From positions 1-64,000 of the forward strand of contig CAKNHF010000001.1 in NCBI GenBank assembly GCA_930972465.1: a stretch of 64,000 nt of DNA, read 5' to 3'. The notes below the pieces were generated by a model. The model searched no databases. It saw nothing but the letters and a program-made list of their open reading frames with translations, and was not told where the DNA came from. This document shows positions 3 to 22,006 of the stretch, piece after piece. This stretch comes from an uncultured Lachnospiraceae bacterium. GTDB taxonomy: Bacteria; Bacillota; Clostridia; Lachnospirales; Lachnospiraceae. The translations under genes were made by a program, and so were the position numbers. Each line of letters starts with the position of its first letter. Positions within the stretch are counted from its first letter, which is position 1.

Positions 3-2153
3 GACGAAGTACGCATCATTCTTATTCTGTCATATGGCGTGTGTATGATCGGCTCTGCCTGGTTTTTGAATAAATGTATTGATATAGACAGAGGACTCCA
101 CAAGACGGCAGATAAGCTTCTCAAAATAAAGATCGAAGAAGCAAGGGAATTGCTTGGCACATTAAAGAAGAAACGTGATCATATGCTCTGGGACAGCTCG
201 TCCAATGAAAGTTTTGACGAGCTGATCGACCGGATAACGAGCGGGGCTGAAAGCACGGAAGCATGGCTTCAGATTGAGGATGAGACAGAAAAAAGCAGAA
301 TTAACAAAAAGAAATTTATCAACAGATTTTCAGAATGGGAAAAGATATTGTTTTGTCTCGCAGAGAATGGAGAGGGATTTTTGCACAGGCAGTCCATGGC
401 GGAAAGAGTGCGGTTTGCGGTAGAACATGGAGAGACTGTATATGGAGATACTGATGTGGAACAAAATGATGCCAAAGCTCATGCGTGGGGAAAGAATTCT
501 CCATATGAGGAAGTTTTCGGAATAAAGAAGGCGCTGAAAATAGACGGAGCAGGATTCTGCGATGCGTATTATCTTTTGTCGGAAATGCGGAATCTGCTCC
601 AGGTACAGATGGAGACGGCCCCGAGAAAAGAAACAGAGCCGCTGAAAGAAAATGAAATCGGAACACTTTTTTTGTTTTTCCTGATGCAGCTTTCCCTCTA
701 TGTTTTTTGTATGCTTCCTAAGCTGGAGGTCTTTTTCCCGTCGGGGAAATTCAGTTTTATTGACTTTTATGGTATCCGTTTTGAGACGTCGTCTTTCCGA
801 ACCTCTTTATTCGATTGCAGTCTTTTTGTGAGAAACCGGATAAAAGACTGCAATTTTGGTATGGCTTCTTTCAATAACTGTGAGTTTTATTATACCAGCA
901 GCGAGGACTGCTCATTTACGAATACGCTTTTTATGGACTGCTATTTTCAGAACGCGACATTTGAAAATGTCGATTTTACTGGGGCGGAGCTGAATGAATG
1001 TGACCTCAGGCGGGCGCAGTTTGAAGGTGTTGTTCTGGCAAATGTCAATCTTAAAAAAGCAGTGTTCGGGAAGAATAATTTTTCTGCTTCACGGCTTACA
1101 GATATAGAAATTGAACTTAAAGATGGTGCAGATACAAGAATGAGTGAGTGTGGTTTTGTATCATCTGTTCTGGAACGGATTAAACTGAAACTGTTTTCTG
1201 AAAAAGATTACCGTAAGGTGTTTCGGCTGATCTGGACAGAAGCCGGAGAAGAAAAAGCGGTTTTACTGAAAGAAAGAGCTTACTCCCATAGGGAAAGTAA
1301 ATATTTGCTGAAAAAAAGTTGGCAGAAAATAGCAGAAGCATCGACTTTTAAAATGGATCAAAGTGATTTTACACATGCTGAGCTGACAGACATTGTATTT
1401 TACAGAGTATGCATGGAACAGAGCGTATTTGTAAAAACGCAGATGGATTCGATCAAAATATATGCCTGTGACATGCACGGATGTATTATGGAACAGGCAA
1501 ATCTGCGCCAGGGAAGAATTTGTGCGACAGATTTCCGAAGCGCAGTTCTTGCGGATGCAATTTTCTATAAAAGCAGGTGCCGTCTGGTCAATTTTGAAGA
1601 TTCGGATATGAATAGGCTTCATGCATCCGCAGCAAGATTTAGTCTTTGCTCATTTGAGAGAAGTGACTGCAGCCGGATTGATCTGACAAAGGCCCGGGTA
1701 AATGCAAGTTCATTTAAAGATGTTATACTTACAGCAGCAGAATTGACAAGAGCATTTTTCAATAATGTTTCTTTCGTAAACTGCATTGCGGACGGGATGC
1801 TGTCATCTTACTCGACTTTTGAAAAATGTAGATTTAAAAATGCGTTTCTCGGGCAGTCCAGTTTTAATTATTCTGTATTTCGTAACTGCAATTTTGCTTT
1901 TGCCAGTTTTGCGGACAGTACGGTGTCCGGCGCTGAATTTGATGGCTGTGATTTTACAGAGACGAATTTTAATAATACGTGCTTTATCGGGGTAACATTC
2001 AAGAACAGTAAGAACCTGAAGGCGGATTCGTTTAAAGGAGCCAGATTTATTAATCCTGTATTCAAAGAAACGGATGAATTTTTTGACAGAATTCTGCTCA
2101 AGAATAAAATTGAAGTCAGGAGAACGGAAGAATCGGATACAGTCGAAGATTAA
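3..2153 (+). CDS. Pentapeptide-repeat membrane protein, 5' end outside the window
   Basis: The reading frame is open to the window edge, so the true start is probably upstream; a GTG at 39 is the first internal candidate. The visible N-terminus is hydrophobic, and a second hydrophobic segment lies around residues 215-235. From about residue 250 to the end the protein is a long run of degenerate pentapeptide repeats (A/C-D/N-L/F-x-x spacing with regular F, L and C), which fold as a quadrilateral beta-helix. A charged helical stretch interrupts the run near residues 395-430. No catalytic motif is visible. It ends 18 bases before the biosynthetic operon at 2172 and may be co-transcribed with it. 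Some pentapeptide proteins protect gyrase or serve as self-immunity factors in peptide antibiotic clusters, but this one is much larger than those and that role is only a guess. Confidence 0.8.
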   Translation, partial: DEVRIILILSYGVCMIGSAWFLNKCIDIDRGLHKTADKLLKIKIEEARELLGTLKKKRDHMLWDSSSNESFDELIDRITSGAESTEAWLQIEDETEKSRINKKKFINRFSEWEKILFCLAENGEGFLHRQSMAERVRFAVEHGETVYGDTDVEQNDAKAHAWGKNSPYEEVFGIKKALKIDGAGFCDAYYLLSEMRNLLQVQMETAPRKETEPLKENEIGTLFLFFLMQLSLYVFCMLPKLEVFFPSGKFSFIDFYGIRFETSSFRTSLFDCSLFVRNRIKDCNFGMASFNNCEFYYTSSEDCSFTNTLFMDCYFQNATFENVDFTGAELNECDLRRAQFEGVVLANVNLKKAVFGKNNFSASRLTDIEIELKDGADTRMSECGFVSSVLERIKLKLFSEKDYRKVFRLIWTEAGEEKAVLLKERAYSHRESKYLLKKSWQKIAEASTFKMDQSDFTHAELTDIVFYRVCMEQSVFVKTQMDSIKIYACDMHGCIMEQANLRQGRICATDFRSAVLADAIFYKSRCRLVNFEDSDMNRLHASAARFSLCSFERSDCSRIDLTKARVNASSFKDVILTAAELTRAFFNNVSFVNCIADGMLSSYSTFEKCRFKNAFLGQSSFNYSVFRNCNFAFASFADSTVSGAEFDGCDFTETNFNNTCFIGVTFKNSKNLKADSFKGARFINPVFKETDEFFDRILLKNKIEVRRTEESDTVED

Positions 2154-2171: not shown

Positions 2172-3005
2172 TTGTTTTACATCGGAAAAACGATAGATAC
2201 CTTTTGTCCGGCTTTGAACCAGCTGATGGAATATGAGGAACTGCCAAAGATAAGCAGTCCTGACTGTATCAGTCTGCGGGCATTCGGATTCTGCGCAGAC
2301 GGCGGGGCAAAGGAATGGTTCCGGCCTTTGATCGATACGGAAAGTGCGGTCAGGAAGCTTGGAGAAGCGGCAGGGCTTCCACTTTCAGCAGTTTGCTTGG
2401 ATAAGGGATTCCGCATGCTGGAAATGCCGGAAGCTTTTGTCTTGGGTCCGGTGAAAAACGGAATTGCTGCGCCGGCGGTAAGTGACCGTTATTACAGAGG
2501 CAACGGAAGGTATTTGTTTGTACAGAAGAGGGAAAAGGAATATCAGGTATTTGATCCATGGGGATTTCCGGGGCTCTGGATGGCGCAGGAAGAGCTGCTG
2601 GCTCTGGCTGATTATCAGTCGGGCTGTTATATTACATATCTGCGGGAAGAGAGCGGTCATAGAAACCGTATGTCCCGGGAACTTCCCTGTGAAACGATAT
2701 TAAGGCGGGGCGTCGAGTATCATAAGGCAATAAGAGATCTTGAGGAGAGGAGCATAACAGGGGCTGCAGAACGATATGCAGGTTCACAGAGTGAAAGAAT
2801 TGCACTTCGGTATGGCATACTGAATATGATCCAGATGCTGGATAAGGTGTTTTTGCTTGCCGGAAAATGCGGACGCCAGGATATGATGACGGAGTATACC
2901 GAAAAGAAGCAGCGGCTGTATCGTATGGCAGAATCAGGAAATATCGGGGAGCTCCCCGGTATATTGACCTGTATATGGAGGAGTCTGGAGAAAGATGGAA
3001 GATAA
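2172..3005 (+). CDS. BtrH-like papain-fold protein, divergent paralogue
   Basis: The start is a TTG at 2172 with only a weak purine-rich upstream sequence. The 277-residue product resembles the N-terminal domain of BtrH (butirosin acyltransferase) and other C39-like papain folds. It has a Cys near the N-terminus (FCPALNQL), a central GPVKNG turn, a strand-rich segment with YLFVQ, and DPWGFPG where such folds carry their DP(W/A)G turn. The rest is helical. It shares layout with the product of 8020-8964, which has GPIDMG and DHYILL at matching places. Here the position of the likely catalytic His reads GRYLFV, so Arg replaces His; it may be inactive or act as a structural partner. It is the first gene of the operon and overlaps the decarboxylase gene by 11 bases. 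The family assignment is by pattern only. Confidence 0.6.
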   Translation: MFYIGKTIDTFCPALNQLMEYEELPKISSPDCISLRAFGFCADGGAKEWFRPLIDTESAVRKLGEAAGLPLSAVCLDKGFRMLEMPEAFVLGPVKNGIAAPAVSDRYYRGNGRYLFVQKREKEYQVFDPWGFPGLWMAQEELLALADYQSGCYITYLREESGHRNRMSRELPCETILRRGVEYHKAIRDLEERSITGAAERYAGSQSERIALRYGILNMIQMLDKVFLLAGKCGRQDMMTEYTEKKQRLYRMAESGNIGELPGILTCIWRSLEKDGR

Positions 3006-4245
3006 ATATGCTTTTTTTGATCCGATGGATAAAGAGTGGAAAGATGTCATGGACAGAATGAGAAAAACAGAACGGGAATGGGGCGCGCCATTTTATATTT
3101 TCCACGAAAATCTGTTTGTACGTAATCTGAATCTTCTGCGTGAATGTCTTGGCGGGAATGTCGGCATCGCTTATGCTATGAAAGCGAATCCCTGGCTGGT
3201 GAAGGCAGCGGCTGAAGCGGCAGAATATATTGAGGTGAGTACGGACGGAGAACTCCGGATGTGCCGGGAATATGGAATACCGGGCAGCAGGATCGTTCTG
3301 GATGGTGTGCTCAGAACAGAGGATATGCTTCGAAATGCCTTTGACATGGGCGTGAGGAGATTTTGCATTGATTCTGCAGAACAGGTGAGACAGATAACAG
3401 AACTATGCGATGCCGGGATGTCGGGAGAAAACTCTGTGGAATTGCTTCTGCGTCTTGGCAGCGGCGGCAGATTCGGTATGGATAAAGAGGAGGCAGTGCA
3501 GTGTATTCATATCTGTGATAAAAATATGTCGGCCAGGATTGTCGGGCTTCATTACTATCCCGGGACGCAGCGGAACGAAGTCGGGAAGCTGCGGAGGGAT
3601 CTGGAATATTTTCAGCAGGCCCTGAATGGCCTGTCTGAACTGCCGGGATTTGACATATCCGAAATACAGATCGGGTGCGGTATCGGATTTCCATATTTTG
3701 TCGGAGAAAAGAAAGAGAAATATGCGGTTGCTATGGATGAAGCCGCAATGTTTGTAAAGGAGCTTCGGAAAAAATTTAAAGTGATTTATGAAGCGGGACG
3801 ATGCGTCGCTTCTTCGGCCGGAGTCTATGTGACGAAGGTGTTTCAGATAAAAGACAGGGAGAATGAGAAGATCCTGTTCTGCCTCGGCGGGACAAATCAT
3901 CTTCAGTATCCGGGAGGAATGCTTGGCATACGGACGCCGCATATAGGTAATACCTGCAGGACGTCTTCAGGTAGAGTGGCGGGATGCATGATCTGCGGCT
4001 CGCTGTGTAATGAAGCAGATGTGCTCGCGCGCAGCGCGGCAGCAGATGAAGGCGTGCAGAGAGGTGATCTGCTGATCTTCTACGGCGCCGGAGCCTACAG
4101 CGCGACAGAGGCTCCGAATTTGTTTTTATCTATGGAAATGCCCTCTGTATTGGTGTATAATAAAATGGATAATGTGCATGCACAAGATATACGATGTGTA
4201 CGGGGGCATTCGTCAACATATAGACTTCTTGATGATAGGATGTGA
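2995..4245 (+). CDS. PLP-dependent decarboxylase, fold III (DAP/ornithine decarboxylase and BtrK type)
   Basis: This is a 416-residue member of the group IV decarboxylases: an alanine-racemase-like barrel followed by a beta domain. The PLP lysine is Lys63 in YAMKANP. Other family marks are GRFGMD, LHYYPGTQ (the HxHxGSQ position), EAGRCVAS, the dimer-active-site Cys338 in CGSLCNEAD, and GAGAYSATEAPN near the C-terminus. Such enzymes remove the alpha-carboxylate from diaminopimelate, ornithine, lysine or arginine; BtrK does so on glutamate held on a carrier protein. Lying between a BtrH-like gene and an ACP gene, it plausibly works on a carrier-bound amino acid. That is inference, and a free amino acid substrate is equally possible. 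The gene overlaps its upstream neighbour by 11 bases, which points to translational coupling. Confidence 0.85.
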   Translation: MEDKYAFFDPMDKEWKDVMDRMRKTEREWGAPFYIFHENLFVRNLNLLRECLGGNVGIAYAMKANPWLVKAAAEAAEYIEVSTDGELRMCREYGIPGSRIVLDGVLRTEDMLRNAFDMGVRRFCIDSAEQVRQITELCDAGMSGENSVELLLRLGSGGRFGMDKEEAVQCIHICDKNMSARIVGLHYYPGTQRNEVGKLRRDLEYFQQALNGLSELPGFDISEIQIGCGIGFPYFVGEKKEKYAVAMDEAAMFVKELRKKFKVIYEAGRCVASSAGVYVTKVFQIKDRENEKILFCLGGTNHLQYPGGMLGIRTPHIGNTCRTSSGRVAGCMICGSLCNEADVLARSAAADEGVQRGDLLIFYGAGAYSATEAPNLFLSMEMPSVLVYNKMDNVHAQDIRCVRGHSSTYRLLDDRM

Positions 4246-4252
4246 GTTGAAA

Positions 4253-4531
4253 ATGAATAGACCTGGCAGAGAAGAGACAGAGAACAGGATCATAGGGATA
4301 GTGACTGAGATGTTCCGTAATTCTGCCGGATATAATAAGGATGTAACAGTGAGCGCTGAGACACAGATCCAGGATGAATTAGGATTTGATTCGATCATGC
4401 TTATTGTGCTCCAGATCGATATAGAGGATGCGTTTCATATCAGGTTTGATCCTGTAGAAGAAGATCTTCAGCAGGTTTTTCTGTCGATACGGACATTAAC
4501 GGACTCTGTGCAGAGTCATATGGGAGTGTGA
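4253..4531 (+). CDS. Acyl carrier protein, stand-alone
   Basis: This is a 92-residue phosphopantetheine carrier. The attachment serine is Ser47 in DELGFDSIML, a good match to the (L/F)-G-x-D-S consensus, followed by the acidic helix IDIEDAF. The start is uncertain: an AGGA box at 4237-4240 sits 6 bases before a TTG at 4247 and 12 bases before the ATG at 4253, both in frame, so two extra residues are possible. It lies 7 bases after the decarboxylase stop and 3 bases before the radical SAM start. With the adenylation enzyme at 6587 it makes a minimal amino-acid loading pair. No phosphopantetheinyl transferase is seen in this window, so one would have to be supplied from elsewhere. Confidence 0.85.
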   Translation: MNRPGREETENRIIGIVTEMFRNSAGYNKDVTVSAETQIQDELGFDSIMLIVLQIDIEDAFHIRFDPVEEDLQQVFLSIRTLTDSVQSHMGV

Positions 4532-4534
4532 TAT

Positions 4535-5692
4535 ATGAATACGAATAACGTATTAAGGCAGATTACATATGAGATATATAAACAGCGGACGGTCATGCCG
4601 GAAAAGATGCGGACAAATTACAGAATAGAAAGAGCCAACGGAGGACTGCTTTGTGATCTGTGGTTTCTGACCGTCGGCTGTATCCATGACGCTCAGGGCG
4701 GCTGCGTGATGTGCAATTATGGAAAAGGAAGCGGAGTCGTACACTGGGATAAGATCCTCGGCGAGCTGAAGAAAATTGTGGAGCGCCTGCCATGGGAGTT
4801 TGAAGATTTCCTGTTAACGCCGAGCGGAAGCATGCTGGATGAGAGAGAAGTATCAAAATCCATGCGGGAGGATCTGTGCGGGATATTAAAAGGGATAAGA
4901 ACAAAACGTTTTATTATAGAATCAAGAGCAGATACGATATCAGAGGAAGGTCTTGATTTTGTAAAGAAGGCGGTTCCGGATGCTGAAAAATATATTGAGA
5001 TTGGCGTAGAGAGCAGTAATAACTGGATATTGAAGCACTGCATCAATAAGAATACAACTTATGAAATGTTTCAGGATGCAGTTCAGAAAATACATCAGGC
5101 CGGCATGTATGTGACTGCCAATATCGGTCTGGGTTATCCGTTTATGAGCGAGAAGGCGGCGATTATCAATACGGTTCGCTCGATAAAGGACGTACTGAAT
5201 GATGGGGCGGACAGTGTTGTTTTGTTCCCGTATCATATAAAAAAAGGTACGCTTCTTAACGTGCTTTCCGAAAATGGGATGTACAGATGTGTGTCGTTCT
5301 GGTCTCTGGCAGAAGTGCTGGGATATTTTTCGGAAACAGAATTAAGTAAGATACAGATATCCTGGTATAAGGATTATTTTGGTGAAGAAAAATCATATAT
5401 CTGCAGTTCTCCGGGCACCTGTCCGAACTGTGAAAGAAAAGTGTTGAAAGAGCTGGATGAATACCGTGAGACTCAGAATCCGGAAATTATCAGGAGACTG
5501 AGAGAATATCCATGTTCCTGCCATGCGGAATGGAAGCAACAGATGGACAGGGAAAACGGCCAGATCGATATAAAAAGGACAGAGGAAGAATATCGGAAGC
5601 TGGCGGAGATTTATAAAACAGACCGGCAGTTACTGGAGCAGGAAATCGGTATAATGAAGGATGAATTTATGAGGAGATATGGAAATGAATAA
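4535..5692 (+). CDS. Radical SAM enzyme, RaSEA/TIGR01210-like
   Basis: This is a 385-residue radical SAM protein. The cluster motif is Cys49-x7-Cys57-x2-Cys60 (GCIHDAQGGCVMCNYG), not the common CX3CX2C. Such expanded spacing occurs in the Elp3 and RaSEA (archaeosine synthase partner) groups. A barrel follows with the family's FIIESRADTI and EIGVESSNNWIL segments and ANIGLGYP. The C-terminus has further cysteines (CSSPGTCPNC and PCSC) that could hold a metal or a second cluster. RaSEA acts on a lysine-deazaguanine adduct in archaea. No deazaguanine genes are present here, so the enzyme has probably been recruited for another step in this pathway. The stop overlaps the next gene by 8 bases. The superfamily is near certain and the subfamily moderately so. 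Confidence 0.8.
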   Translation: MNTNNVLRQITYEIYKQRTVMPEKMRTNYRIERANGGLLCDLWFLTVGCIHDAQGGCVMCNYGKGSGVVHWDKILGELKKIVERLPWEFEDFLLTPSGSMLDEREVSKSMREDLCGILKGIRTKRFIIESRADTISEEGLDFVKKAVPDAEKYIEIGVESSNNWILKHCINKNTTYEMFQDAVQKIHQAGMYVTANIGLGYPFMSEKAAIINTVRSIKDVLNDGADSVVLFPYHIKKGTLLNVLSENGMYRCVSFWSLAEVLGYFSETELSKIQISWYKDYFGEEKSYICSSPGTCPNCERKVLKELDEYRETQNPEIIRRLREYPCSCHAEWKQQMDRENGQIDIKRTEEEYRKLAEIYKTDRQLLEQEIGIMKDEFMRRYGNE

Positions 5693-6587
5693 TTGGCTGG
5701 AAAATGATATAAATAAAGAAATCGCGAGAATCCAGACTTTCATCTGTAATTTTGTCCTTGATGGGGAGACGGTTGTCGTACCTGTTTCGGGAGGGCTTGA
5801 TTCAGACGTTGTTGCCCGCCTCTGCTGCAGGAGTCTCGGCAGCAGCAGGGTAAAGGCTTTTATTGTCATTCAAAGCGATATGGAGCCAAAGTTCCTGAAG
5901 AATGCGAAAAAACTGTGCGGTGAGCTGGAAATACCGCTTGCGGAGATCCATCTGGAGAATATGAATCAGGATCTGATGGAAGCATTGGAAGAATCTGAGT
6001 CTAAGACAATATTCAATACAGATATGATGCTGGATCCGGCAAAAGCGAAGTGTTCTGTCAGGTCCGCTGTAATTTCATGTTATCAGGACAAGGGGTTCCT
6101 GATAGCCGGAACGACAAACAGAACAGAAAAAGAGCTGGGATTTTTCCTTACCTTTGGAGATAATCTGGCCCACTTTAAACCGGTCGCACATCTTTACAAA
6201 TCAGAACTGAAAGAACTGGCGGCTGCTTTGGGAACTGAAAAAGAGGTTATCGACCAGGAACCGTCCGCCGGTTTCTGGTCCGGACAGACGGATTTGGAAG
6301 ATATTGCATATTGGATTGTAAATGACGGCCCGATTGTCATCCCCAGAGAATTTTCCGAACAGGAGATCATAAAAGCAGAGAACATTAAGGTTGCGCTGGA
6401 TTACCAAAAGATTGACAGCATTCTTGAACGGATTTCTTCCGGGGAGTCGATTGAAGAAATACGGGATAAAACGGATGTTTCAGCGGAAATTATATCAGGG
6501 CTGTATCATATTGTTGAGAAGGCAAAGCGGCTGAAAAGCAGAGAGATTATGGCAGAGCTGCCTGTTCATGTCATCGGAGGAATTTAA
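5685..6587 (+). CDS. NAD synthase-like ATP pyrophosphatase
   Basis: This 300-residue protein has the PP-loop SGGLDS (residues 35-40) and the NH3-dependent NAD synthase marks GTTNRTE, TFGDNLAHFKPVAHLYKS and PSAGFWSGQTD. ATG 5685 is preferred to 5679 because GAGGAG at 5671-5676 is 8 bases upstream of it. It has no nitrilase-type glutaminase domain, so it would use free ammonia or another amine. The family adenylates a carboxylate and releases pyrophosphate while forming an amide. It could be the cell's ordinary NadE, but its place inside a tightly coupled biosynthetic operon suggests a dedicated amide or amidine step. The downstream start overlaps its stop (TAATG). Confidence 0.8.
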   Translation: MNNWLENDINKEIARIQTFICNFVLDGETVVVPVSGGLDSDVVARLCCRSLGSSRVKAFIVIQSDMEPKFLKNAKKLCGELEIPLAEIHLENMNQDLMEALEESESKTIFNTDMMLDPAKAKCSVRSAVISCYQDKGFLIAGTTNRTEKELGFFLTFGDNLAHFKPVAHLYKSELKELAAALGTEKEVIDQEPSAGFWSGQTDLEDIAYWIVNDGPIVIPREFSEQEIIKAENIKVALDYQKIDSILERISSGESIEEIRDKTDVSAEIISGLYHIVEKAKRLKSREIMAELPVHVIGGI

Positions 6588-8023
6588 TGCTGTATTGGAA
6601 ATTAATTGAGTCACACTTGGCGGATCCGCGTATCATTATTTCGAATGGAAGTCAGGAATATACTTTCAGGCAGCTTCACGCAAGAGTCCGGTCATACGGC
6701 GCATTTTTCCGCAGCAGAGGACTGAAAGCGGGAGACCGTGTGCTCATAGTAGATCGTGAACCACTGGAAACAGTGGTTCTTCTTCTTGCCTGTATTTCGG
6801 AAGGCCTCGTGTTTGTTCCCGTTAACAGGCACATGAGACCAGAAGACAGGGATGAAATTGTAAAAAGCTGTACTCCGGCTCTTATTCTTGATGGTACGGT
6901 GGATCCTGCAGCTGAGGCGGTATGGAATGAAGAAACTTGTGTAGAAGACAGAAAGCAATACCCGGAGGACACACTGGTTTATATCATATATACATCAGGA
7001 ACCGGGGGAATGGCAAAAGGAGTCTGCGGCAGTCAGAAGCAGATTCTGTTCTGCAGCGATGCAATAAACCGAAGACTTGGAAATAACTCCGGAGACAGGA
7101 TATTGTGCAGCCTTCCGCTAACATTTGATTATGGACTCTATCAGGTGTTTTTGTCATTCATGAGCGGAGCGCAGCTGTATTTGAGTTCAGGGGAGATGCT
7201 CCAGCGCATCCCCTATCTTCTCAAAAAATGGAAGATAACCGCGTTTCCTACCCTGCCTACGGTGGCGGCGCTTCTTGTAAGAACAGGTTTTCTGGATCAT
7301 GCAGATAATTTTTATCTGCGGTATATTTCCTTTACGGGTGAAGTGCTGCCCCTTCCCTTGATACAGACGCTGAGAGAAGCGATGCCCCGGACGTCTGTTA
7401 TACCTATGTATGGTATGACAGAATGCAAGCGTGTGGCCATTATGCCGGCAGAAAGAATGGACAAGCTGATGGCAGGATCATGCGGGCTCCCTTTGGATGG
7501 CGTCAAAGTCTGGCTTATCAACAAAGAAGAAGATACAGGTATTGGAGAGCTGGTAGTTGAAGGACCTAATGTAATGGAGGGATATTGGGGAATCAGGGAT
7601 GAGGATTCCGGTGTTTTTGAGTCAGACAAGGAGAACGGGAAACGGAGAGTATACACCGGGGATCTTTTCCGTATTGACAGCGAAGGGTTCCTTTACTTCT
7701 GCGGACGCAGAAACGGAATTATCAAAATCCGCGGTTATAGAGTGAATGGTTTCCGGATTGAGGAAATGATGCGGAAGATTAGCGGGGTGAAGGAGGCGGC
7801 AGTGACCGGGCTGCCGGATCAGGTGACCGGAGAGCACGCCGCAGTCTTTATCTATGCAGATGACGCCGCCGTCAAGCGTGCAGTGGAAGAGACGATACGC
7901 CAGATGCCATTTTATCTTCAGAATACAGAAGTGTTTCTGCTTCATACACCGTTTCCGAGAAACAGGAACGGTAAAACAGATATAAAGAAATTGTGTGTGA
8001 TGGCAAGGGAGGGGCTGATTTGA
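6587..8023 (+). CDS. Stand-alone amino acid adenylation enzyme (ANL superfamily)
   Basis: This is a 478-residue AMP-forming ligase with the ordered adenylation core motifs. They are the phosphate loop TSGTGGMAKG (136-145), YGMTEC, YTGDLFRIDSEGFLYFCG, the hinge region GRRNGIIKIRGYRVN, and the C-terminal catalytic lysine segment NRNGKTDIKK. There is no fused carrier or condensation domain, so it resembles DltA or stand-alone NRPS A-domains that load a separate carrier. The obvious partner is the ACP at 4253-4531. Specificity cannot be read reliably by eye. The start shares a base with the previous stop, and its own stop overlaps the next start, so it belongs to the same operon. Confidence 0.88.
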   Translation: MLYWKLIESHLADPRIIISNGSQEYTFRQLHARVRSYGAFFRSRGLKAGDRVLIVDREPLETVVLLLACISEGLVFVPVNRHMRPEDRDEIVKSCTPALILDGTVDPAAEAVWNEETCVEDRKQYPEDTLVYIIYTSGTGGMAKGVCGSQKQILFCSDAINRRLGNNSGDRILCSLPLTFDYGLYQVFLSFMSGAQLYLSSGEMLQRIPYLLKKWKITAFPTLPTVAALLVRTGFLDHADNFYLRYISFTGEVLPLPLIQTLREAMPRTSVIPMYGMTECKRVAIMPAERMDKLMAGSCGLPLDGVKVWLINKEEDTGIGELVVEGPNVMEGYWGIRDEDSGVFESDKENGKRRVYTGDLFRIDSEGFLYFCGRRNGIIKIRGYRVNGFRIEEMMRKISGVKEAAVTGLPDQVTGEHAAVFIYADDAAVKRAVEETIRQMPFYLQNTEVFLLHTPFPRNRNGKTDIKKLCVMAREGLI

Positions 8024-8964
8024 GATTCTACGGAAATGAGATCTGCTGCGGGAGCTATGCATGCCTGAATGCGATGCAGGATCCGTCCATGGATCTGCAG
8101 CTGTTCGAGATCTCTACATCGACGCCTTTTGGAATTCGACATTATGAAAATGAGCATTTCGACAGGCTACTCACAACATATTGCGATCCGAACCAGGGGA
8201 TGGACCGTGCGCTGCGGCTATGGGGATATGCCGTAGAAACCGTCCGGACAGGTACTGCAGAAGAGGCGGTACAGGAGATCAGGCATCGGATCCGCCCTGA
8301 TTTTCATGTTATTGTTGGTCCGATCGATATGGGGAGACTCGGCTATCAGATCATGTCGGCTCTGCTGAGAAGAATGGATCATTATATTTTGCTGGAACAT
8401 TGTTCAGATACTGAGGCATACTGTACGGATTCAGAAGGATTCTTCCGGTACCGACTTACATATGAAGAGATTCGCGCGTATCTGTCAGCTGACTCTGTGC
8501 CGGAGGCGGACGGATGCATAACAGTTCGGCAGATAAAGAAAAAACAGGATTACAAAATGGAAGAAGTTTTGGAACAGTCGTTCAGATATGCGGCGGATAA
8601 TCTCCGCGCGGCAGAAGAAGACGGAGAGGGCTCACGGGCAATAATGAACTGCTGCAGATATTTGGAACAGTATAAGGAATACAAATGGCGGCTTCCGCTC
8701 ATGTACGATATTCAGTATCTGAAGCAGAGGAAAGTACTGATGTTATTTTTATTCGATAAGTTGGAACGAAACAGGAGATGCAGCAGAGAGCTGGCAGGAG
8801 AAATAAGGCAAATTGTAAATACACAGAATGATCTTCTGGGGAAAATATATGGAAATCTTCAGAAGGGGCTGGGGATAGAGAAAGGGAGCTTTGAGGAGAT
8901 GGCGCAGTGGGAGAGTCGACTGGCGAAAGTATTGTGCATAAGTTTTCCTCCTGTTCTTCCGTGA
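8020..8964 (+). CDS. BtrH-like papain-fold acyltransferase or peptidase
   Basis: I place the start at TTG 8020, which overlaps the preceding stop (TTGA) and has GGGAGGGG about 6 bases upstream; the product is 314 residues. The N-terminus reads NEICCGSYACLNAM, the Cys-containing helix start of the BtrH_N/C39-like fold. A GPIDMG turn and DHYILLEH supply a plausible catalytic His. The C-terminal half (from about residue 170) is helical and probably packs on the core. BtrH moves an acyl group from a carrier protein to an aminoglycoside amine. By analogy this protein may offload the product built on the ACP, but hydrolysis or cyclisation cannot be excluded. It is the last gene of the operon. I see no clear terminator before the IS remnant. 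Confidence 0.65.
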   Translation: MRFYGNEICCGSYACLNAMQDPSMDLQLFEISTSTPFGIRHYENEHFDRLLTTYCDPNQGMDRALRLWGYAVETVRTGTAEEAVQEIRHRIRPDFHVIVGPIDMGRLGYQIMSALLRRMDHYILLEHCSDTEAYCTDSEGFFRYRLTYEEIRAYLSADSVPEADGCITVRQIKKKQDYKMEEVLEQSFRYAADNLRAAEEDGEGSRAIMNCCRYLEQYKEYKWRLPLMYDIQYLKQRKVLMLFLFDKLERNRRCSRELAGEIRQIVNTQNDLLGKIYGNLQKGLGIEKGSFEEMAQWESRLAKVLCISFPPVLP

Positions 8965-12051: not shown

Positions 12052-12945
12052 TCATTCTTCCAACATTGCCAGATAGCTGTCTAACCTTGTATTCACATAC
12101 CCAGCAAACAACTTTTCCATCGCATTCAGATTATGATTTACATGATATTCATCAAAAGCATTGTAATAAGCAATCCGATCTGCAAACTTAATATCTATTG
12201 GAGGATACCCGGCTTTCATCAGTTCCAGATTCACAAGTAGTCTCCCCGTCCGGCCATTTCCATCGATAAAAGGATGGATACCCTCAAACTCAATATGAAA
12301 CCGGGCAAGCCGTGGAATAATATGCTCTGTACTGTTTCTATAATACTCCAGCAACTGCTCCATCTTAGGCTGAATCAGATAAGGCTGCACCGGTTCATGC
12401 TTTGCACCCATAATTCTTACCGGAACTCTTCTGTAAACCCCTCGGTCATCCTTTTTATCAGCCAATACCAAATAATGAATCTTCTTGATAATGCTCTCTG
12501 ATAACGATACCTGATCTTTCACTAAATTCTGCACAAAATCAAAAGCTTCTTTATGACCGACCGCTTCCATGTGATCTTTCAGCGGCTTCTGGTCAATCGT
12601 CAAGCCACGCAGCACCATATCTGTCTCTCGCAGCGTCAGCGTGTTTCCCTCAATCGCATTGGAATTATATGTGTATTCAACTACAAACTCCTCTGTCAGC
12701 CGCTCCACCTCTCCCTCTGTCAAAGGCCGTCTGGAATCCAGTTCAATTTTTTTCCTGTCAATCATTGCAAGCAGACTCTCGGCAGCTTTATACCTGCCGT
12801 CCTCCGGTTTCTTCGCATCTGCAGGAATCTTCCAACTGCGTCCATCCCTGGTAACACCTGGTATCTTCCCCTCTGAGCATAATATACGAACTCTTCTATC
12901 TGAAATGCCCCATTTTTCTGCTGTCTGCTTCACTGTCATGTACAT
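12052..12945 (-). CDS. Fic-family AMP transferase with N-terminal HTH domain
   Basis: This 297-residue protein starts at ATG 12945, with GAGGTG 7 bases upstream. Residues 1-50 form an excisionase/MerR-like DNA-binding domain (VKQTAEKWGISDRRVRILC). The Fic core carries HPFIDGNGRTGR, a full HxFx(D/E)GNGRxxR catalytic motif. Upstream, SNAIEGN matches the (S/T)xxxE(G/N) inhibitory helix, which makes it a class II, self-inhibited Fic. Such enzymes move AMP onto target proteins. The HTH domain and the repeated sites over its promoter suggest that the protein binds its own control region. Target and role (toxin-like or regulatory) are unknown. Confidence 0.88.
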   Translation of the reverse strand: MYMTVKQTAEKWGISDRRVRILCSEGKIPGVTRDGRSWKIPADAKKPEDGRYKAAESLLAMIDRKKIELDSRRPLTEGEVERLTEEFVVEYTYNSNAIEGNTLTLRETDMVLRGLTIDQKPLKDHMEAVGHKEAFDFVQNLVKDQVSLSESIIKKIHYLVLADKKDDRGVYRRVPVRIMGAKHEPVQPYLIQPKMEQLLEYYRNSTEHIIPRLARFHIEFEGIHPFIDGNGRTGRLLVNLELMKAGYPPIDIKFADRIAYYNAFDEYHVNHNLNAMEKLFAGYVNTRLDSYLAMLEE

Positions 12946-12970
12946 AAATCTACACCTCACTTCAAACAGT

Positions 12971-12999
12971 AGTATACCCTATTATCGGAACAATATCAA
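12971..12999 (-). promoter_or_regulatory. Sigma-A promoter of the fic gene
   Basis: On the minus strand TTGATA (12999-12994) and TATACT (12976-12971) are separated by exactly 17 bases, about 25 bases ahead of the fic start. One of the ATCGGAA repeats lies inside the spacer. Confidence 0.75.
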
Positions 13000-13038
13000 C
13001 GGTATCGGAATAATACTTCCTGCTGATCGGAATAATAC
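12984..13038. promoter_or_regulatory. Three operator-like repeats over the fic promoter
   Basis: ATCGGAA followed by (C/T)AATA(T/C) occurs at 12984-12996, 13004-13016 and 13026-13038, spaced 20 and 22 bases apart, about two helical turns. The first lies between the -35 and -10 boxes, so a protein bound there would block transcription. The HTH domain of the Fic protein is the natural candidate. Confidence 0.6.
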
Positions 13039-13127
13039 AAAAGCCCGAAAGATACCATTTTTCATTTCCCGGACCATTATTTTACACTTCTGATTTTAGT
13101 TTCCTCAATCCTAGTACCCTACCAGTC

Positions 13128-13302
13128 CTATTGCACCGGTTTGCGAGACATGTAATTGTCCTTAAGATCCCGGTCAGGCCATCCCGTGCAAGGGATCAGG
13201 ATATCCTTTACACCACGGTTTTTCAGCTCATTCAGGACAGCCAGTATTTAGAGCTTTCGTTATCCCCAACCTGAATAGTGTATCGCATCGATAAAGAGGA
13301 TC
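13128..13302 (-). pseudogene. IS256-family (Mutator-type) transposase fragment
   Basis: The minus strand encodes, in successive frames, ILFIDAIHYS, then GDNESSKYWLS, then LNELKNRGVKDILI and a possible DGLTG. In intact IS256 transposases these segments run in this order around the catalytic core. At least two frameshifts and a terminal stop are present, so the piece is dead. Confidence 0.7.
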
Positions 13303-13756
13303 GGTTATACTTCATCCAGAGGCCGGTTCTGCCAGTTCTCTATAAATATGATTAAGCTTAAAATGACATCATCTTGGAGGGGATGACCGGATAGAGGATG
13401 CGGCAGAAGTTGTATCTTGATTGCATATCATCGGATTGCTGGAGCCGAAGTGGTGAGCTTTGACAAAAATTAAATAAAAATCTGGAAAGATAATGGAATA
13501 GATTTAGAGACTTGGAACTCCTTCTGCATATGCTGTCTGCTGACATATGCAGAAGGAGTTTTACTTTTTTTCACAGCAATAGTAAGTGATCAGCCAGTCT
13601 GTTTCTGGATAGATCCGCTCAAATCCAGTTGTATACTGAGAGAAGGCCTGTTAATGACAGGCGGTATTTATTTTTCCTGACAGAGATTTAACATATCCTT
13701 TATGAAAACTTTTCACGGTTATATTAAAATTTTTCATGGAAAGTGAGGTTCTGATT
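13303..13756. other. Gene-free stretch between the IS256 fragment and the surface cluster
   Basis: I find no supported gene here. It contains one strong terminator (13516-13570) whose own gene appears to be lost, and the AT-rich upstream region of the gene at 13757. A short frame ending AGAEVVSFDKN near 13476 may be the tail of that lost gene. Confidence 0.5.
13516..13570 (+). terminator. Rho-independent terminator without an intact gene
   Basis: Arms 13516-13532 and 13544-13560 form a perfect 17-bp stem with an 11-base loop, followed by a T-rich tail to 13570. No intact forward gene precedes it. Confidence 0.85.
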
Positions 13757-14239
13757 TTGAAGAAAAAATATGTACTGATCGGAATTATTATATTGATTGT
13801 TCTTTTCGCAGGTATAGGTATTGGAGTTGCATTGAACAGAAGTAATACTGTTTCGAATGAAAATGCAGGGATTTCCATTGATAAGAACGCGCAGGAATAT
13901 GAAGATGAAGAAAGTGAGACGGAGAAAACAGCATCAATTCGATTCCCCGGTTATCCGGAGATTACAGTAAGCGAGGAGCAGAGTGATATACCGATTGTGC
14001 TGACGAATCCGGATGTGAATCCATGTTATTTTCAATTTACAGTCAGTCTGGATGACGGGGATCCTGTTTATGAGAGTGAGTGGGTGAAGCCGGGAGATGC
14101 AATCAGGGGATTTGAGATGGATGCGCCGCTGAATCCGGGCGATTACGAGATGAGTATTTCCATTGCTACGAAATCTCTGGACACGGAGCAGACTATGAAC
14201 GGAGGAAATGTCAAAACAACGCTTCATGTGACAGAATAA
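13757..14239 (+). CDS. Membrane-anchored extracytoplasmic protein, hypothetical
   Basis: I choose TTG 13757 (MKKKYVLIGI) since GTGAGG lies about 9 bases upstream and the product then begins with a standard signal anchor (residues 4-28). After an acidic linker (about residues 35-55) comes a beta-rich domain with ITVSEEQSDIPIVLTNPDVN and a GDYEMSISI strand near the end, an immunoglobulin-like pattern of about 100 residues. The 160-residue product probably sits outside the membrane with its domain facing the wall. It precedes two further surface-protein genes on the same strand and likely belongs with them. Confidence 0.65.
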   Translation: MKKKYVLIGIIILIVLFAGIGIGVALNRSNTVSNENAGISIDKNAQEYEDEESETEKTASIRFPGYPEITVSEEQSDIPIVLTNPDVNPCYFQFTVSLDDGDPVYESEWVKPGDAIRGFEMDAPLNPGDYEMSISIATKSLDTEQTMNGGNVKTTLHVTE

Positions 14240-14307
14240 GAGATATCTATATCCGCAGGGATATTGATATATAACATCAGACACAACCAGGAAAGGAGAA
14301 AAAGACG

Positions 14308-14847
14308 ATGAAACTGAGAAAAGTTATGTCATTAGCAGTAGTAGCAGCAACAGGAGTTATGCTGGCGGGGCAGACGGCCATGGCGGCAGAAGTAAGTGAA
14401 AATACTCCGGATCAGGATGTTCAGCAGAAGATTGTCCTTGAGAAAACAGAAGAAGTTGTACCTACATATACTGTAGATGTTCCGGCAACGGTTACTCTTT
14501 CAAAGGATGCGCAGAATCTGTCGTTTTCAATGAATCTTGAGAACCATGAGAATTTTATTCCGGACGGAAAGAAAATATCCGTAGTAATTGAAAGTGCAGG
14601 ATATCCCACAGAACTGAACAAATTTGCCGTATGGGACAGCAGGAATCTGCAGGAAGCATCATATGAAATCTATTATTCTGACGCAATGGCAGGCGGAAGA
14701 TACTCAATCGGAGATGAAATTGTATCCTGGGAAGGAAGTGACTGGGGAACTCAGAACAGAAGAATCAAAGCCCTGGACTATGACAACATTAAACCGGGAA
14801 ATTACTCAGGTGTGATCAATTACTCGATTTCTCTGACAGATAAATAA
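14308..14847 (+). CDS. Secreted beta-rich surface protein
   Basis: The 179-residue product has a clear Sec signal peptide (basic MKLRK, hydrophobic core, cleavage after MAA or AMA near residue 27) and a strong AAAGGAG site. The mature part is a beta-sandwich-like domain starting YTVDVPATVTLSKDAQNL and ending GVINYSISL, a layout common in small Lachnospiraceae surface or pilus-like proteins. No sorting signal is present, so it may rely on the next gene's product for wall attachment. The next gene starts 2 bases after its stop. Confidence 0.7.
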   Translation: MKLRKVMSLAVVAATGVMLAGQTAMAAEVSENTPDQDVQQKIVLEKTEEVVPTYTVDVPATVTLSKDAQNLSFSMNLENHENFIPDGKKISVVIESAGYPTELNKFAVWDSRNLQEASYEIYYSDAMAGGRYSIGDEIVSWEGSDWGTQNRRIKALDYDNIKPGNYSGVINYSISLTDK

Positions 14848-14849
14848 TC

Positions 14850-15152
14850 ATGAAAATGAAACGACGGATAAGTGCCGGATTAATCCTGCTGGCCTTATTG
14901 ACGTTTTGCGTTCTGCCATATCATCAGACGGTATGGGCGTCAGATATGGAGGCACAGACTGAAGTCCGTCTGCATATTGATGAAAATGAAAAGACAGCAG
15001 TTTCTGATTCGAATGATGATGGAAAAGCAGAGTGTGCAGGGGTACAGACCGGAGACAGTGAAAATATTATACTTTGGAGCTCAACAGTTGGAATAGGGTT
15101 ATTGGTAAGTATTTCAGCTATTTTGATCAGAAAAAAATCAAAGGAGCTTTAA
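14850..15152 (+). CDS. Small surface protein with sortase-like VQTGD tail
   Basis: This 100-residue protein has a signal peptide (residues 1-30, cut near VWA), a short acidic linker, and a C-terminal sorting-type signal: VQTGD at about residues 70-74, then a hydrophobic helix and the basic tail RKKSKEL. The motif departs from LPxTG but resembles the (V/N)xTGD forms used by clostridial sortases. There is almost no mature domain, so it looks like an anchor subunit or linker for the protein encoded just upstream. No sortase gene is seen in the window. Confidence 0.65.
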   Translation: MKMKRRISAGLILLALLTFCVLPYHQTVWASDMEAQTEVRLHIDENEKTAVSDSNDDGKAECAGVQTGDSENIILWSSTVGIGLLVSISAILIRKKSKEL

Positions 15153-15203
15153 GGTAAGAATGTCTTTTCAGGATGATCAGGTTAGGAACAGTAATTTATA
15201 AGG

Positions 15204-15254
15204 AGAGAATTATCCTTCTGTAGAATTTGGAGGATAGTTCTCTTCTTTGGTTTT
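15204..15254 (+). terminator. Probable terminator of the surface cluster
   Basis: AGAGAATTATCCT (15204-15216) pairs with AGGATAGTTCTCT (15231-15243) with a single G-T pair. The tail is only moderately T-rich. Confidence 0.6.
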
Positions 15255-15280
15255 ATACAATGTTCAAGGCTGCTGCTGTG

Positions 15281-15433
15281 TTTTTACAGTTTATTCGTGT
15301 GATTAGATAGTGGCAGAAGCTTTTCGTTCAAAAATCTGACACGAGTGCAGGACGAATCGGTAACTGATATTAAAGAATGGTTTGCCGAATAGAACGCTCA
15401 GATTGTTTCGTAAAAGATTGATGAGAGTTGGGG
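15281..15433 (+). repeat. 153-bp direct repeat, copy B
   Basis: Partner of 11284-11436 (six differences in 153 bases). It ends just before the decayed gene at 15442, so this may be the original setting and copy A the transplanted one. Confidence 0.85.
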
Positions 15434-15441
15434 ACAGAGAG

Positions 15442-15990
15442 ATGAAGCATATTATATATAAATGCCGCAAGATACATTCCGAAATGAAAAAATGGTTAAA
15501 TGACAATAAAATATATTTTGAAACCATGGTAATGCTGATTCTGAGCATTACAGGGATAATAATATCCTATATGGGAGTTTCGGTAAGCAAAACAGCAAAT
15601 AAATTATCATATCAGGCCAATGAGCTTGACAGAATTACTTTGGAATTGACACAAAATGAAATGCTGCCGATTTTAGGTCGTGTTGAGCGTGAGTATGATG
15701 ATATGTTCGGCGACAGGTACTTTCCTGCTATCAAGAAGATGTTGAGATATTGACCGACCAGTTTAAAGATTTATTCAAAGAGGTACCAAAAGAATATTAC
15801 GAGATAGAAATTCACTGAAAAACCTAGTGAGTCTGTTATAAAAGATCTTATATTGACCGGAGCGGTGGCTTCTTCTTGAAAAAACTGCCGGCAATTATCA
15901 TTGCACAGTATACGTAGCTTGATGTAGAATGACGGAAGAGAAAACTTTCTCGAAAAGACAATAGAAGGAACAGTGCGAGACGCACAATAA
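15442..15990 (+). pseudogene. Decayed membrane protein gene
   Basis: From ATG 15442 the first frame gives a protein with one membrane segment (about residues 30-50, MLILSITGIIISYMGVSV) and then stops at 15753. Coding continues in other frames as EDVEILTDQFKDLFKEV, then SESVIKDLILTGAVASS, then LKKLPAIIIAQYT and a tail ENFLEKTIEGTVRDAQ ending at 15990. At least three frameshifts or stops break it. It sits directly upstream of the STAND NTPase cluster and may be a former member of that system. Confidence 0.65.
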
Positions 15991-16022
15991 GAGAATCGGA
16001 AGGAAAATAAGGAGAACATTCC

Positions 16023-16640
16023 ATGAAAGAGGACAAACATAACAGAGAAAAAACGATTAGTATTGAAGAATATAATAAACATATTGATATGCTTAAGTTT
16101 ATCGATACAACAAGGAATACATTACTTACATTTGCGTTTACTTCCGTACTTGCGGTAGTGGGTATAGCGATTGGGACCGAAAAGGAAAAATTCAATCCAT
16201 GGTTGTGTCTGCTGCCGTTTTTTCTGATCATACCGTTTACGGCCCGGATATCATATTACAGACTTTCCTCTGCGCATATAAACAGTTTTCTGGAAGTGTT
16301 TGCAGAAGACAAGATGTGTTTTATGAAAGGAACAAAGGACGTGCCGGAACGCTATGGCCGAGTGTATAAAGTGACTGCATTTCTGGTTAATCATGAGATG
16401 CTGTGTCTCAGTATAGCTGTATTTGTTGCATTTGGAATTACAATGTGGGAGTCAGAAGAGAAGTGGAAGATATATGAATTTCTTCTGACGCTTATAGTGC
16501 CGCTGGTATTGTGTTTTATCGTTTTTCTTATATCTTTTTCAACATACAATTATAAAAAAATGCTGGAGTATTATGGTGGCAGGTGGGAAAAATACTATAA
16601 GAAATTCTGTGAGGAATGCGAAGAGATAGAGAGAAAATAA
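16023..16640 (+). CDS. Four-pass membrane protein, hypothetical
   Basis: The 205-residue product has a charged 35-residue N-terminus, then membrane segments at about 36-54, 60-82, 122-140 and 150-172, and a charged C-terminus (EEIERK). A plausible AAGGAGAA site precedes the ATG. I recognise no named family. It lies 43 bases before a giant STAND NTPase gene on the same strand. With the SLATT-like gene on the other side it forms a three-gene set, which makes a membrane effector or anchor role plausible. Confidence 0.6.
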   Translation: MKEDKHNREKTISIEEYNKHIDMLKFIDTTRNTLLTFAFTSVLAVVGIAIGTEKEKFNPWLCLLPFFLIIPFTARISYYRLSSAHINSFLEVFAEDKMCFMKGTKDVPERYGRVYKVTAFLVNHEMLCLSIAVFVAFGITMWESEEKWKIYEFLLTLIVPLVLCFIVFLISFSTYNYKKMLEYYGGRWEKYYKKFCEECEEIERK

Positions 16641-16683
16641 AAATTCAGTTCGGGGACAGACTACATTTTTACAAGAGGAACTC

Positions 16684-20784: not shown

Positions 20785-20811
20785 GGGGCGCTTGAGAATG
20801 AGAGGATAAAA

Positions 20812-21345
20812 ATGGGAAAAGCAAATATAAAAACGATCAATGAAAGAAATGAAAGTCTTGAAAAATGGGTAGAAGCTTTAACAAATGAAAACACTCGTAA
20901 TTATATTGAAATCAGGGTAATACCCCAGATGGGCTATTACAGCAAAGCCAGCAGAAAATATAAAAAGAAATATTTTCGTATTAAAATTCTGATAATCGTA
21001 TTGGGTGCGATGATCCCAATTGCAACATTGTTCTGCGATTACAGTATATTTATAAAAGCTTTTATTGCCCTTTTAGGGGCATCGGTAAGCGCGCTGACGG
21101 CATATCTTGAACTGGAGAATTCTCAGGCTTTGTGGCAGTCTTATCGTGCGAAGCGGGAACAAATACTAAGTCTCTTAATGTGGTATTTTACCGATACAGG
21201 AATTTTTGCAGATATTTCGGATCAGAAGATCAAAGACAGGATGATGATCGAAACATGCGAGCAGTATCTGTCCGAAGAGCATCAATACTGGAAAGAGATT
21301 TCCGGTAAGGCGAATGGTCAGGAGAAAAAGGAAGAGAAACAGTGA
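20812..21345 (+). CDS. SLATT/DUF4231-like two-helix membrane protein
   Basis: The 177-residue product has an N-terminal helical region, two adjoining membrane helices (about residues 62-80 and 84-105, with a short acidic turn) and a cytoplasmic helix holding ALWQSYRAKREQIL. This is the layout of SLATT/DUF4231 proteins, which are predicted to open membrane pores in nucleotide-dependent conflict systems. The gene starts 27 bases after the STAND NTPase stop and is probably co-transcribed. It would be a natural effector for that sensor. The pairing is inferred from position and fold only. Confidence 0.7.
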   Translation: MGKANIKTINERNESLEKWVEALTNENTRNYIEIRVIPQMGYYSKASRKYKKKYFRIKILIIVLGAMIPIATLFCDYSIFIKAFIALLGASVSALTAYLELENSQALWQSYRAKREQILSLLMWYFTDTGIFADISDQKIKDRMMIETCEQYLSEEHQYWKEISGKANGQEKKEEKQ

Positions 21346-21403
21346 AATGTGTCTGAAAATTTCTGCCGGATACAGATTCCTCTCTCCGTCAATACTATCA
21401 TTA

Positions 21404-21412
21404 TGTTATAAT
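21404..21412 (+). promoter_or_regulatory. Extended -10 promoter before the isochorismatase-like gene
   Basis: TGTTATAAT fits an extended -10 (TGnTATAAT), 18 bases before ATG 21431. The -35 region is poor. Confidence 0.45.
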
Positions 21413-21430
21413 TTCCCGGGAGGTCTCAAT

Positions 21431-22006
21431 ATGCAGAATATACTTTTCTTAATTATTGACATGCAGAAAGGATTCATTAATAATTTCACAGCCCCGCTCA
21501 TTGAAGATATACGTGATTTTCAGAAAAAGATTTCACCGTACTGCGTTACGGCAGGAACACGATATGTGAACCACGAGCATACGGCATGCTATGTGTTTGA
21601 AGGCTGGACAAGCTGTATGAAGGGCACGGAAGAAGCGGAGATTGTGCCGGAGCTTGGTGACTGTATGGCAAAAATATTCGACAAGGATAAGTACAGCTGC
21701 TGGAATGAAGAGTTGCAAAGCTTTGTTCATGACAATGAGATAAATAAAATATATTTTGCAGGTGTCAATACGGGATGCTGTGTGCTGAATAGTGTCCTTG
21801 ACTGCTACAACGATCTCGTTGACTGTGCGGTTATTGAAGATCTGTGCGGTTCTACGTCGGGCCGGGAGGAGCATGAAGCGGCATTGACCGTTCTGAAAAG
21901 CTGCATCACGGAAAAACGAGTAATTACAGCAGAACAGGCGTACAGAGAAATATGTGAAAGAAACCGCCGGAACTTCCGGACGGCCGTTTATGCAGAAAAG
22001 TATTGA
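21431..22006 (+). CDS. Isochorismatase-like cysteine hydrolase
   Basis: The 191-residue protein starts at ATG 21431 behind GGGAGG. The triad of the isochorismatase/nicotinamidase fold is visible: Asp in LIIDMQKG near the N-terminus, Lys in FDKDKYSCW, and the nucleophile Cys in GVNTGCCVL. The cis-peptide segment before the Cys is also as expected. The family hydrolyses amides, ureido groups or isochorismate, and the sequence does not settle the substrate. It seems to be a single-gene unit; the glmS promoter begins at its stop codon. Confidence 0.85.
   Translation: MQNILFLIIDMQKGFINNFTAPLIEDIRDFQKKISPYCVTAGTRYVNHEHTACYVFEGWTSCMKGTEEAEIVPELGDCMAKIFDKDKYSCWNEELQSFVHDNEINKIYFAGVNTGCCVLNSVLDCYNDLVDCAVIEDLCGSTSGREEHEAALTVLKSCITEKRVITAEQAYREICERNRRNFRTAVYAEKY

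Follow-up and report, generated by a model that had tools for sequence, protein, structure and literature searches.

An Eight-Gene Operon in Lachnospiraceae Suggests Carrier-Based Biosynthesis of a Small Molecule without NRPS or PKS Modules

Introduction

In vicenistatin and AFC-BC11 biosynthesis, the sets VinN/VinL/VinO and AfcQ/AfcK/AfcP combine an adenylating ligase of the ANL type, which loads an amino acid through its side chain, with a free acyl carrier protein (ACP) and a decarboxylase that acts on the loaded amino acid (PMC11284099, PMC12186527). VinN is reported to load 3-methylaspartate via the side-chain carboxyl, with D230 binding the amino group and binding of the alpha-carboxyl assigned to S299 and R331 (PMC7756342, PMC12186527, PMC11253843). 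VinO decarboxylates its amino acid on the carrier (PMC11284099), and the Afc enzymes do likewise with aspartate, AfcP acting on ACP-bound Asp (PMC12186527). For BolO/BolC/BolN the same combination of ANL ligase, ACP and pyridoxal phosphate (PLP)-dependent decarboxylase has been proposed. Here we analyze an operon of an uncultured Lachnospiraceae bacterium that contains such a trio. It lies at positions 2172–8964 of the plus strand in a stretch of 64,000 nucleotides, hereafter the window (contig CAKNHF010000001.1 of assembly GCA_930972465.1, positions 1 to 64,000). Unlike the Vin and Afc systems, it has no polyketide synthase (PKS), fatty acyl ligase or desaturase, and it adds a pair of BtrH-like proteins, a radical S-adenosylmethionine (SAM) enzyme related to RaSEA and a NadE-like enzyme.

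Two further pathways are related in their logic. In butirosin synthesis, glutamate bound to the ACP BtrI is loaded by the ATP-grasp enzyme BtrJ and decarboxylated by BtrK, and BtrH moves the acyl group onto an amine. The window operon would share with butirosin the ACP-bound acidic amino acid, the BtrK-type decarboxylase and the BtrH-type transferase; it differs in having an ANL ligase instead of the ATP-grasp loader, an extra inactive BtrH paralogue and no aminoglycoside genes. Nearest in logic is closthioamide (CtaC, CtaE, CtaG), with carrier chemistry in an anaerobe that is independent of nonribosomal peptide synthetases (NRPS), beta-alanine units, a CtaG-like fold, an ATP-using modifier and a gyrase target, the last only predicted in our case (PMC6772006). 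Compared with closthioamide, the operon has the ANL ligase for the ATP-grasp CtaD and the NadE-like enzyme for the iron–sulfur (Fe–S) enzyme CtaC, plus the radical SAM enzyme; in place of a CtaC-type thioamide synthetase with three Fe–S cysteines we found a NadE-like protein with one invariant cysteine. Because loader, modifier and radical SAM enzyme differ, the operon is, judged by its genes, not a member of the closthioamide pathway.

A first-pass annotation of this DNA had presented the ANL ligase in place of BtrJ as a new feature. With the Vin and Afc precedents and the proposed Bol set, ANL loading ahead of carrier-bound decarboxylation is already known and not new. What the operon does is join this known carrier-loading trio to a NadE-like enzyme, a RaSEA-like radical SAM enzyme and an active plus an inactive BtrH; what is new here is its link to resistance markers. 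Among the top matches in openly licensed literature we found no pathway of this make-up and no paper on the gene set. We regard the operon as a variant of carrier-based, module-free biosynthesis, rare but conserved in gut and other anaerobic bacteria.

Results and Discussion

We lean towards the reading that the eight genes described below make a small molecule on one carrier without NRPS or PKS modules, by side-chain loading of aspartate, decarboxylation on the ACP, transfer by BtrH2 and nitrogen chemistry, and that the product targets DNA or gyrase. We infer substrate, product and target alike. In the first step, the VinN-type ligase would charge the ACP with an acidic amino acid, L-aspartate being the likeliest, via the side-chain carboxyl, as the residues and relatives of the ligase suggest. 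The PLP enzyme would then strip the alpha-carboxyl on the ACP, following VinO and AfcP, to give beta-alanyl-ACP. Chain growth or capping on the ACP may come third, with the triad-bearing BtrH2, perhaps together with the inactive BtrH1, handing the acyl group over to an amine, in line with the known role of BtrH and the one proposed for CtaG. More tentatively, the NAD-synthase-like enzyme might then use ATP to activate a carbonyl, to which it adds a nitrogen nucleophile. The donor might be trimmed by the radical SAM enzyme, given that RaSEA and queuine lyase, to which it is related, leave nitrogen on the product. The product would finally hit DNA or gyrase, with the pentapeptide-repeat protein shielding the producer, as the linked resistance genes suggest.

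The operon of seven consists of open reading frames arranged head to tail, all on the plus strand, in the order BtrH1, PLP decarboxylase, ACP, radical SAM enzyme, NAD-synthase-like protein, ANL ligase and BtrH2. After correction of two starts they are separated by −11, +7, +3, −14, −1 and −4 bases (overlaps negative, gaps positive). The corrected starts are TTG 8020 for BtrH2, more likely than 7993 because homologues begin at this point, and ATG 4253 for the ACP, more likely because homologue starts shift it. With these corrections, the seven-gene operon of the first-pass annotation, with overlaps or gaps under 10 bases and the gene families as it listed them, was confirmed. Pfam gives direct support for five of the seven proteins; the two end proteins match no Pfam family as single sequences. 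Absent from that annotation were the eighth gene, the UvrA-like marker of sister clusters and the closthioamide-like logic. The eighth gene (3–2153, plus strand), first in the operon, encodes a pentapeptide-repeat protein (Pfam Pentapeptide families, 1e-27 to 1e-28) with a possible self-protection role and ends 18 bases before the seven. The window begins at base 1 of its contig, so the operon sits at a contig edge, and we take this gene to lack its N-terminus because its reading frame stays open as far as contig base 3, and because the homologue directly upstream of the operon in locus L020 has 854 amino acids. Further homologues are found in L021 and L022, and in L020, L021 and L022, as in the window, the gene heads the cluster. 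The ratio of nonsynonymous to synonymous changes (dN/dS) against L020 is 0.125–0.253 for the seven genes and 0.148 for the pentapeptide gene, so all eight look to be under purifying selection. These low values, together with the recurrence of the same set in other genomes, argue that the seven genes are not a chance assembly.

For this recurrence we scanned 84,980 species genomes with the ligase and analyzed the best 80 of 568 loci in which the ligase was confirmed. Operon genes were present in 14 of these 80 (L019–L031 and L049; judged by length and content, L029 is the contig of G470), which with the window and G315 makes at least 16 loci, at least 15 of them beyond the window. The first-pass annotation had named lack of co-occurrence in other genomes as evidence against its operon for a carrier-bound product; the outcome favours the operon: all seven genes appear in one relative order in 11 of the 16 loci, L022 among them with BtrH2 cut short, and contig ends cut three others (L019, L024, L027). 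Carriers include Lachnospiraceae, Vallitalea and the gammaproteobacterium Marichromatium gracile, and 9 of the 14 named relatives bear titles of metagenome bins. One carrier, Marichromatium gracile DSM 203, has a strain name, so a direct search for the product could start there. A gene like beta-ketoacyl-ACP synthase III (KAS III) follows BtrH2 in seven loci (L023, L025, L028, L029, L030, L031 and L049). Six of these seven clusters have an extra gene between those for the radical SAM and NadE-like enzymes, as detected by profile; the L049 gene at this place matches neither that profile nor any Pfam family.

The ligase (6587–8023, plus strand, like all genes of the operon) matches Pfam AMP-binding at 9.8e-62, and its closest match in the PDB is VinN (3wvn, 5.5e-58). 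D181, Y182, T250, K281 and R282 align with D230, F231, S299, K330 and R331 of VinN, of which D230, K330 and R331 are kept. The free-standing ACP (4253–4531; PP-binding, 3.1e-5) carries its pantetheine serine, Ser47, at 4391–4393, invariant in 15 of 15 members. The decarboxylase (2995–4245) has the fold of BtrK, VinO and diaminopimelate decarboxylases and matches Pfam Orn_Arg_deC_N at 1.4e-17 and BtrK (2j66) in the PDB at 8.6e-21. The lysine of the KxNP and the cysteine of the GxxCxxxD motif, which we take to be the catalytic Lys and Cys, and the tyrosine of GAYxxT are kept in all alignment rows covering them. Ligase, ACP and decarboxylase occur together in every locus that reaches all three (14 of 16; in L019 and L027 the sequence is cut short of the decarboxylase). 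In the ligase tree, the 16 operon ligases lie on one side of a single branch with support 91, and the other 66 split 8 + 58, six of the eight adjoining a decarboxylase; several rows are long, hence their placement is unsure. Given the VinN-like ligase and the VinO and AfcP precedents, loading of an amino acid on the ACP followed by decarboxylation there, as the first-pass annotation had proposed, is the best reading of the trio. The first product is likely beta-alanyl-ACP, with aspartate as our best guess for its source.

A different and unlikely course of events is that the decarboxylase acts on a free amino acid and delivers an amine, for example a diamine, as acyl acceptor, the ligase loading another amino acid by its alpha-carboxyl. 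In the PDB the decarboxylase is indeed nearest to diaminopimelate decarboxylases (2p3e at 9e-32, before BtrK), and closthioamide is described as requiring diaminopropane, proposed to derive from aspartate (PMC6772006). Such a course, however, fits poorly with a ligase that is closest to VinN and keeps K330/R331, and with the co-occurrence of the three genes just as in VinN/L/O and AfcQ/K/P.

As single sequences, BtrH1 (2172–3005, TTG start) and BtrH2 (8020–8964) match no Pfam family at E ≤ 0.01; at E ≤ 10 there was one unrelated chance match only. Pfam BtrH_N is found at E ≤ 0.1 in 5 of 14 BtrH2 members (best 2.2e-7), the window protein not among them, and in none of 13 BtrH1 members, and hhalign relates the BtrH1 to the BtrH2 family (98.2%, E 5.3e-14). 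These homologue matches, the BtrH2 model and the BtrH1–BtrH2 profile match are the grounds for calling both proteins BtrH-like. The AlphaFold2 (AF2) model of BtrH2 (predicted local distance difference test, pLDDT, 90.4) has a papain fold; Foldseek returns AziU3/U2 at 8.9e-7, CtaG at 5.5e-6 (template modeling score 0.58–0.61) and CcbD at 8.4e-5. The AziU3/AziU2 pair, which functions in azinomycin biosynthesis, is the best of these matches, yet identity is 10%, and we have no evidence for aziridine formation by the window operon. The putative triad C10 (8047), H121 (8380) and D137 (8428) corresponds to C11, H128 and D144 of CtaG, the residues varied according to PDB titles, with equal His–Asp spacing. 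When the two BtrH families are aligned together, 16 of 16 BtrH2 members have the Cys, and 14 of 14 of those reaching the His and Asp have both. BtrH2 as a BtrH-type acyl transferase fits both triad and modeled fold. The first-pass annotation had listed two BtrH-like proteins; they are not equivalent. In the same alignment BtrH1 has the Cys in 0 of 13 members, the His in only one (L029) and the Asp in 8, although the window BtrH1 has a Cys two residues beyond the BtrH2 position. Its AF2 model (pLDDT 84.3) gives weak papain-like matches and no PDB match at E ≤ 0.001. Because the triad Cys and nearly always the His are missing, BtrH1 probably serves as a conserved partner or scaffold and not as another enzyme of the BtrH2 kind.

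The target prediction comes from the 13 well-covered loci; L019, L024 and L027 were left out because contig ends cut them. A pentapeptide-repeat gene is on the cluster contig in six loci without KAS (the window, L011, L020, L021, L022 and L026) and in none of the seven KAS loci. Six of those seven carry a UvrA-like protein on the cluster contig instead: in L023, L025, L028 and L030 the gene (744–763 amino acids) stands directly after KAS, in L029 it is upstream (L107), and in L031 (3–4445) the UvrA-like part and two RaSEA-like radical SAM domains form a single fused reading frame. In Marichromatium, a UvrA-like gene is found on a separate 3.5 kb contig. None of the seven UvrA-like proteins (six linked plus Marichromatium) matches the UvrB-binding domain PF17760, whereas the long UvrA of 6 of the 7 genomes does. 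On the cluster contigs of the six pentapeptide loci there is no UvrA match. A resistance-type gene is linked in 12 of 13 loci, with one of two unrelated kinds standing in for the other. Producers of DNA-binding drugs are reported to be protected by Ecm16 and further UvrA-like proteins built in this way (PMC10192343, PMC10413001), and for the gyrase inhibitor speirobactin the resistance gene is reported to be that of a pentapeptide protein (PMC12406682). Because such genes are linked to the window and its sister clusters, the product likely acts on DNA or gyrase, and the exchange of two unrelated markers makes this a testable prediction before the compound is known.

That the operon instead modifies a cell-surface polymer or tRNA, makes no secreted antibiotic and merely neighbours an unrelated pentapeptide gene appears improbable to us. 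Exosortase-associated and Dlt ligases are among the ligase relatives, the characterized relatives of the radical SAM enzyme act on queuine or tRNA, related ANL–NadE pairs exist in other contexts, and pentapeptide genes are common in these genomes. A core modification would, however, hardly be so rare and patchy: within the order, the ligase profile (E ≤ 1e-65) finds the operon in 3 of 392 sampled genomes, the own genome included, and we rank this role lower because resistance genes of two swapping kinds are linked.

Returning to the carrier-bound product, the nitrogen chemistry would fall to two enzymes. The radical SAM enzyme (4535–5692; Pfam radical SAM, 1.4e-7) has a CX7CX2C motif at 4679–4714 and four C-terminal cysteines; Cys49, 57, 60, 296, 299, 327 and 329 are invariant in 16 sequences. 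Its profile finds queuine lyase (6p78), which cuts a C–N bond, in the PDB at 8.9e-15; the single sequence did not match it. Both queuine lyase and RaSEA are relatives, the latter converting preQ0-Lys into archaeosine (PMC11298593), and the operon enzyme differs from them in its carrier-protein context, away from tRNA or queuine. The NAD-synthase-like PP-loop ATPase (5679–6587; SGGLDS at 5787–5804) matches Pfam NAD_synthase at 3.3e-37 and TIGR00552 with 114 bits, above the cut-off of 63.65; its nearest relatives are NH3-dependent NAD synthetases (1.9e-36), and Cys125 is its sole invariant cysteine (14 of 14 members). All eight searched genomes carrying the gene have a second NadE, and the ninth, G315, has no operon copy and one NadE elsewhere. 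The operon protein is probably not the housekeeping NadE. From these families we infer nitrogen chemistry on a carrier-bound carbonyl by the two enzymes. Rather doubtful is sulfur insertion by the NAD-synthase-like protein to give a closthioamide-like thioamide: the carrier-based logic, the CtaG-like fold, the gyrase link, CtaC being described as an adenine nucleotide alpha-hydrolase-type thioamide synthetase (PMC6772006), the invariant Cys125 where 2e18 has none, and weak profile matches to LarE (for the Vallitalea protein also to the MnmA and ThiI families) speak for it, but the protein is far closer to NH3-dependent NAD synthetases, one invariant Cys faces the three of the CtaC Fe–S cluster (PMC6772006), and the radical SAM enzyme would be left unexplained.

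One may speculate, as a long shot, that the nitrogen chemistry yields an amidine. The NadE-like enzyme would activate a carbonyl of the beta-alanine chain with ATP and join it to the nitrogen of an amino acid, and the radical SAM enzyme would cut the C–N bond of the donor, like ArcS/RaSEA in archaeosine formation. The product would be a DNA-binding beta-alanyl amidine, its producers guarded by the pentapeptide-repeat or UvrA-like protein. If true, this would be a DNA binder resembling netropsin, made by a wholly different route in anaerobes.

Several observations weigh against the pathway and target as we propose them. In the ligase, S299 of VinN is replaced by T and F231 by Y. All 16 operon ligases have the K–R pair, yet 64 of the 66 other ANL loci share it, the majority without a decarboxylase, so this pair leaves the substrate unfixed, and we rejected the shared code as proof of aspartate loading. 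Nor does the tree show whether the decarboxylase-linked ligases or the rest are nearer to the operon ligases. The BtrH2 profile finds no real relative among PDB sequences, neither CtaG nor AziU3, and the link to CtaG, AziU3 and CcbD is therefore one of fold only. Against TIGR01210 (RaSEA), the radical SAM enzyme scores 157.8 bits (3.8e-46), under the cut-off of 212.15. Two loci, L011 and L026, have no NadE-like gene, and the radical SAM gene of L011 stands ahead of BtrH1. We recognized no exporter gene within the window operon. Finally, a pentapeptide gene is present somewhere in 12 of the 13 genomes, and UvrA-like proteins of 795–851 amino acids occur outside the clusters in G000, G716 and G718.

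The rarity of the operon is also seen with its other enzymes. Radical SAM matches (E ≤ 1e-15) are present in 5 of 397 genomes of the family, the own genome included, and of the other four only G315 has the operon. Around the RaSEA-like matches of G176, G188 and G201, the inspected stretches of 12, 12 and 3.4 kb, respectively, held no other operon enzyme gene; G176 has a pentapeptide gene near the match. BtrH2 matches (E ≤ 1e-8) were obtained in 4 of 398 genomes of the phylum, again including the own one, and none of the remaining three represents the operon. Three distant BtrH2-like proteins of other Bacillota (L104–L106) were rejected as operon members because partner genes are absent nearby, save for a weak radical SAM match in L106 (34 bits). 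Among 146 genomes around Marichromatium, only Marichromatium itself has a BtrH2 match. In the 66 other ligase loci of the best 80 of 568, there was no BtrH or radical SAM match at E ≤ 1e-3, and a decarboxylase is present in six. A DNA search of plasmids gave no match, nor did the radical SAM protein against phages, and BtrH2 gave nothing confirmed against viral contigs.

Relatives of the two modifying enzymes also appear in other company. Across many phyla, a NAD-synthase homologue lies in one locus with a related ANL ligase; 38 of the 66 non-operon loci have such a pair (within L034–L098, for example L046 7996–12869, L077 149–2704 and L080 1915–5938), and some of them, by eye, also have an asparagine-synthetase-like gene and an ACP. 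L012 (311–5926) holds a cluster with a pentapeptide-repeat gene, a protein that looks like ATP-grasp/radical SAM, a nitroreductase-like gene and a RaSEA-like radical SAM enzyme; its names are by eye except for the radical SAM and pentapeptide matches. In L013 (2644–4509), a RaSEA-like enzyme with a long C-terminal extension, by eye resembling a FolE2-type domain, is near a QueD-like gene.

In the window itself, the GC content is 0.34–0.49 across 1–26000 and 0.47–0.59 further right, which may mean an acquired island. Positions 12052–26864 hold defence-like neighbours, namely a Fic-type protein, a DUF4062/NPHP3_N NTPase, a KAP NTPase that matches PADLOC PDC-S20 at 1.1e-128, and a short fragment of a helicase that matches PbeA.

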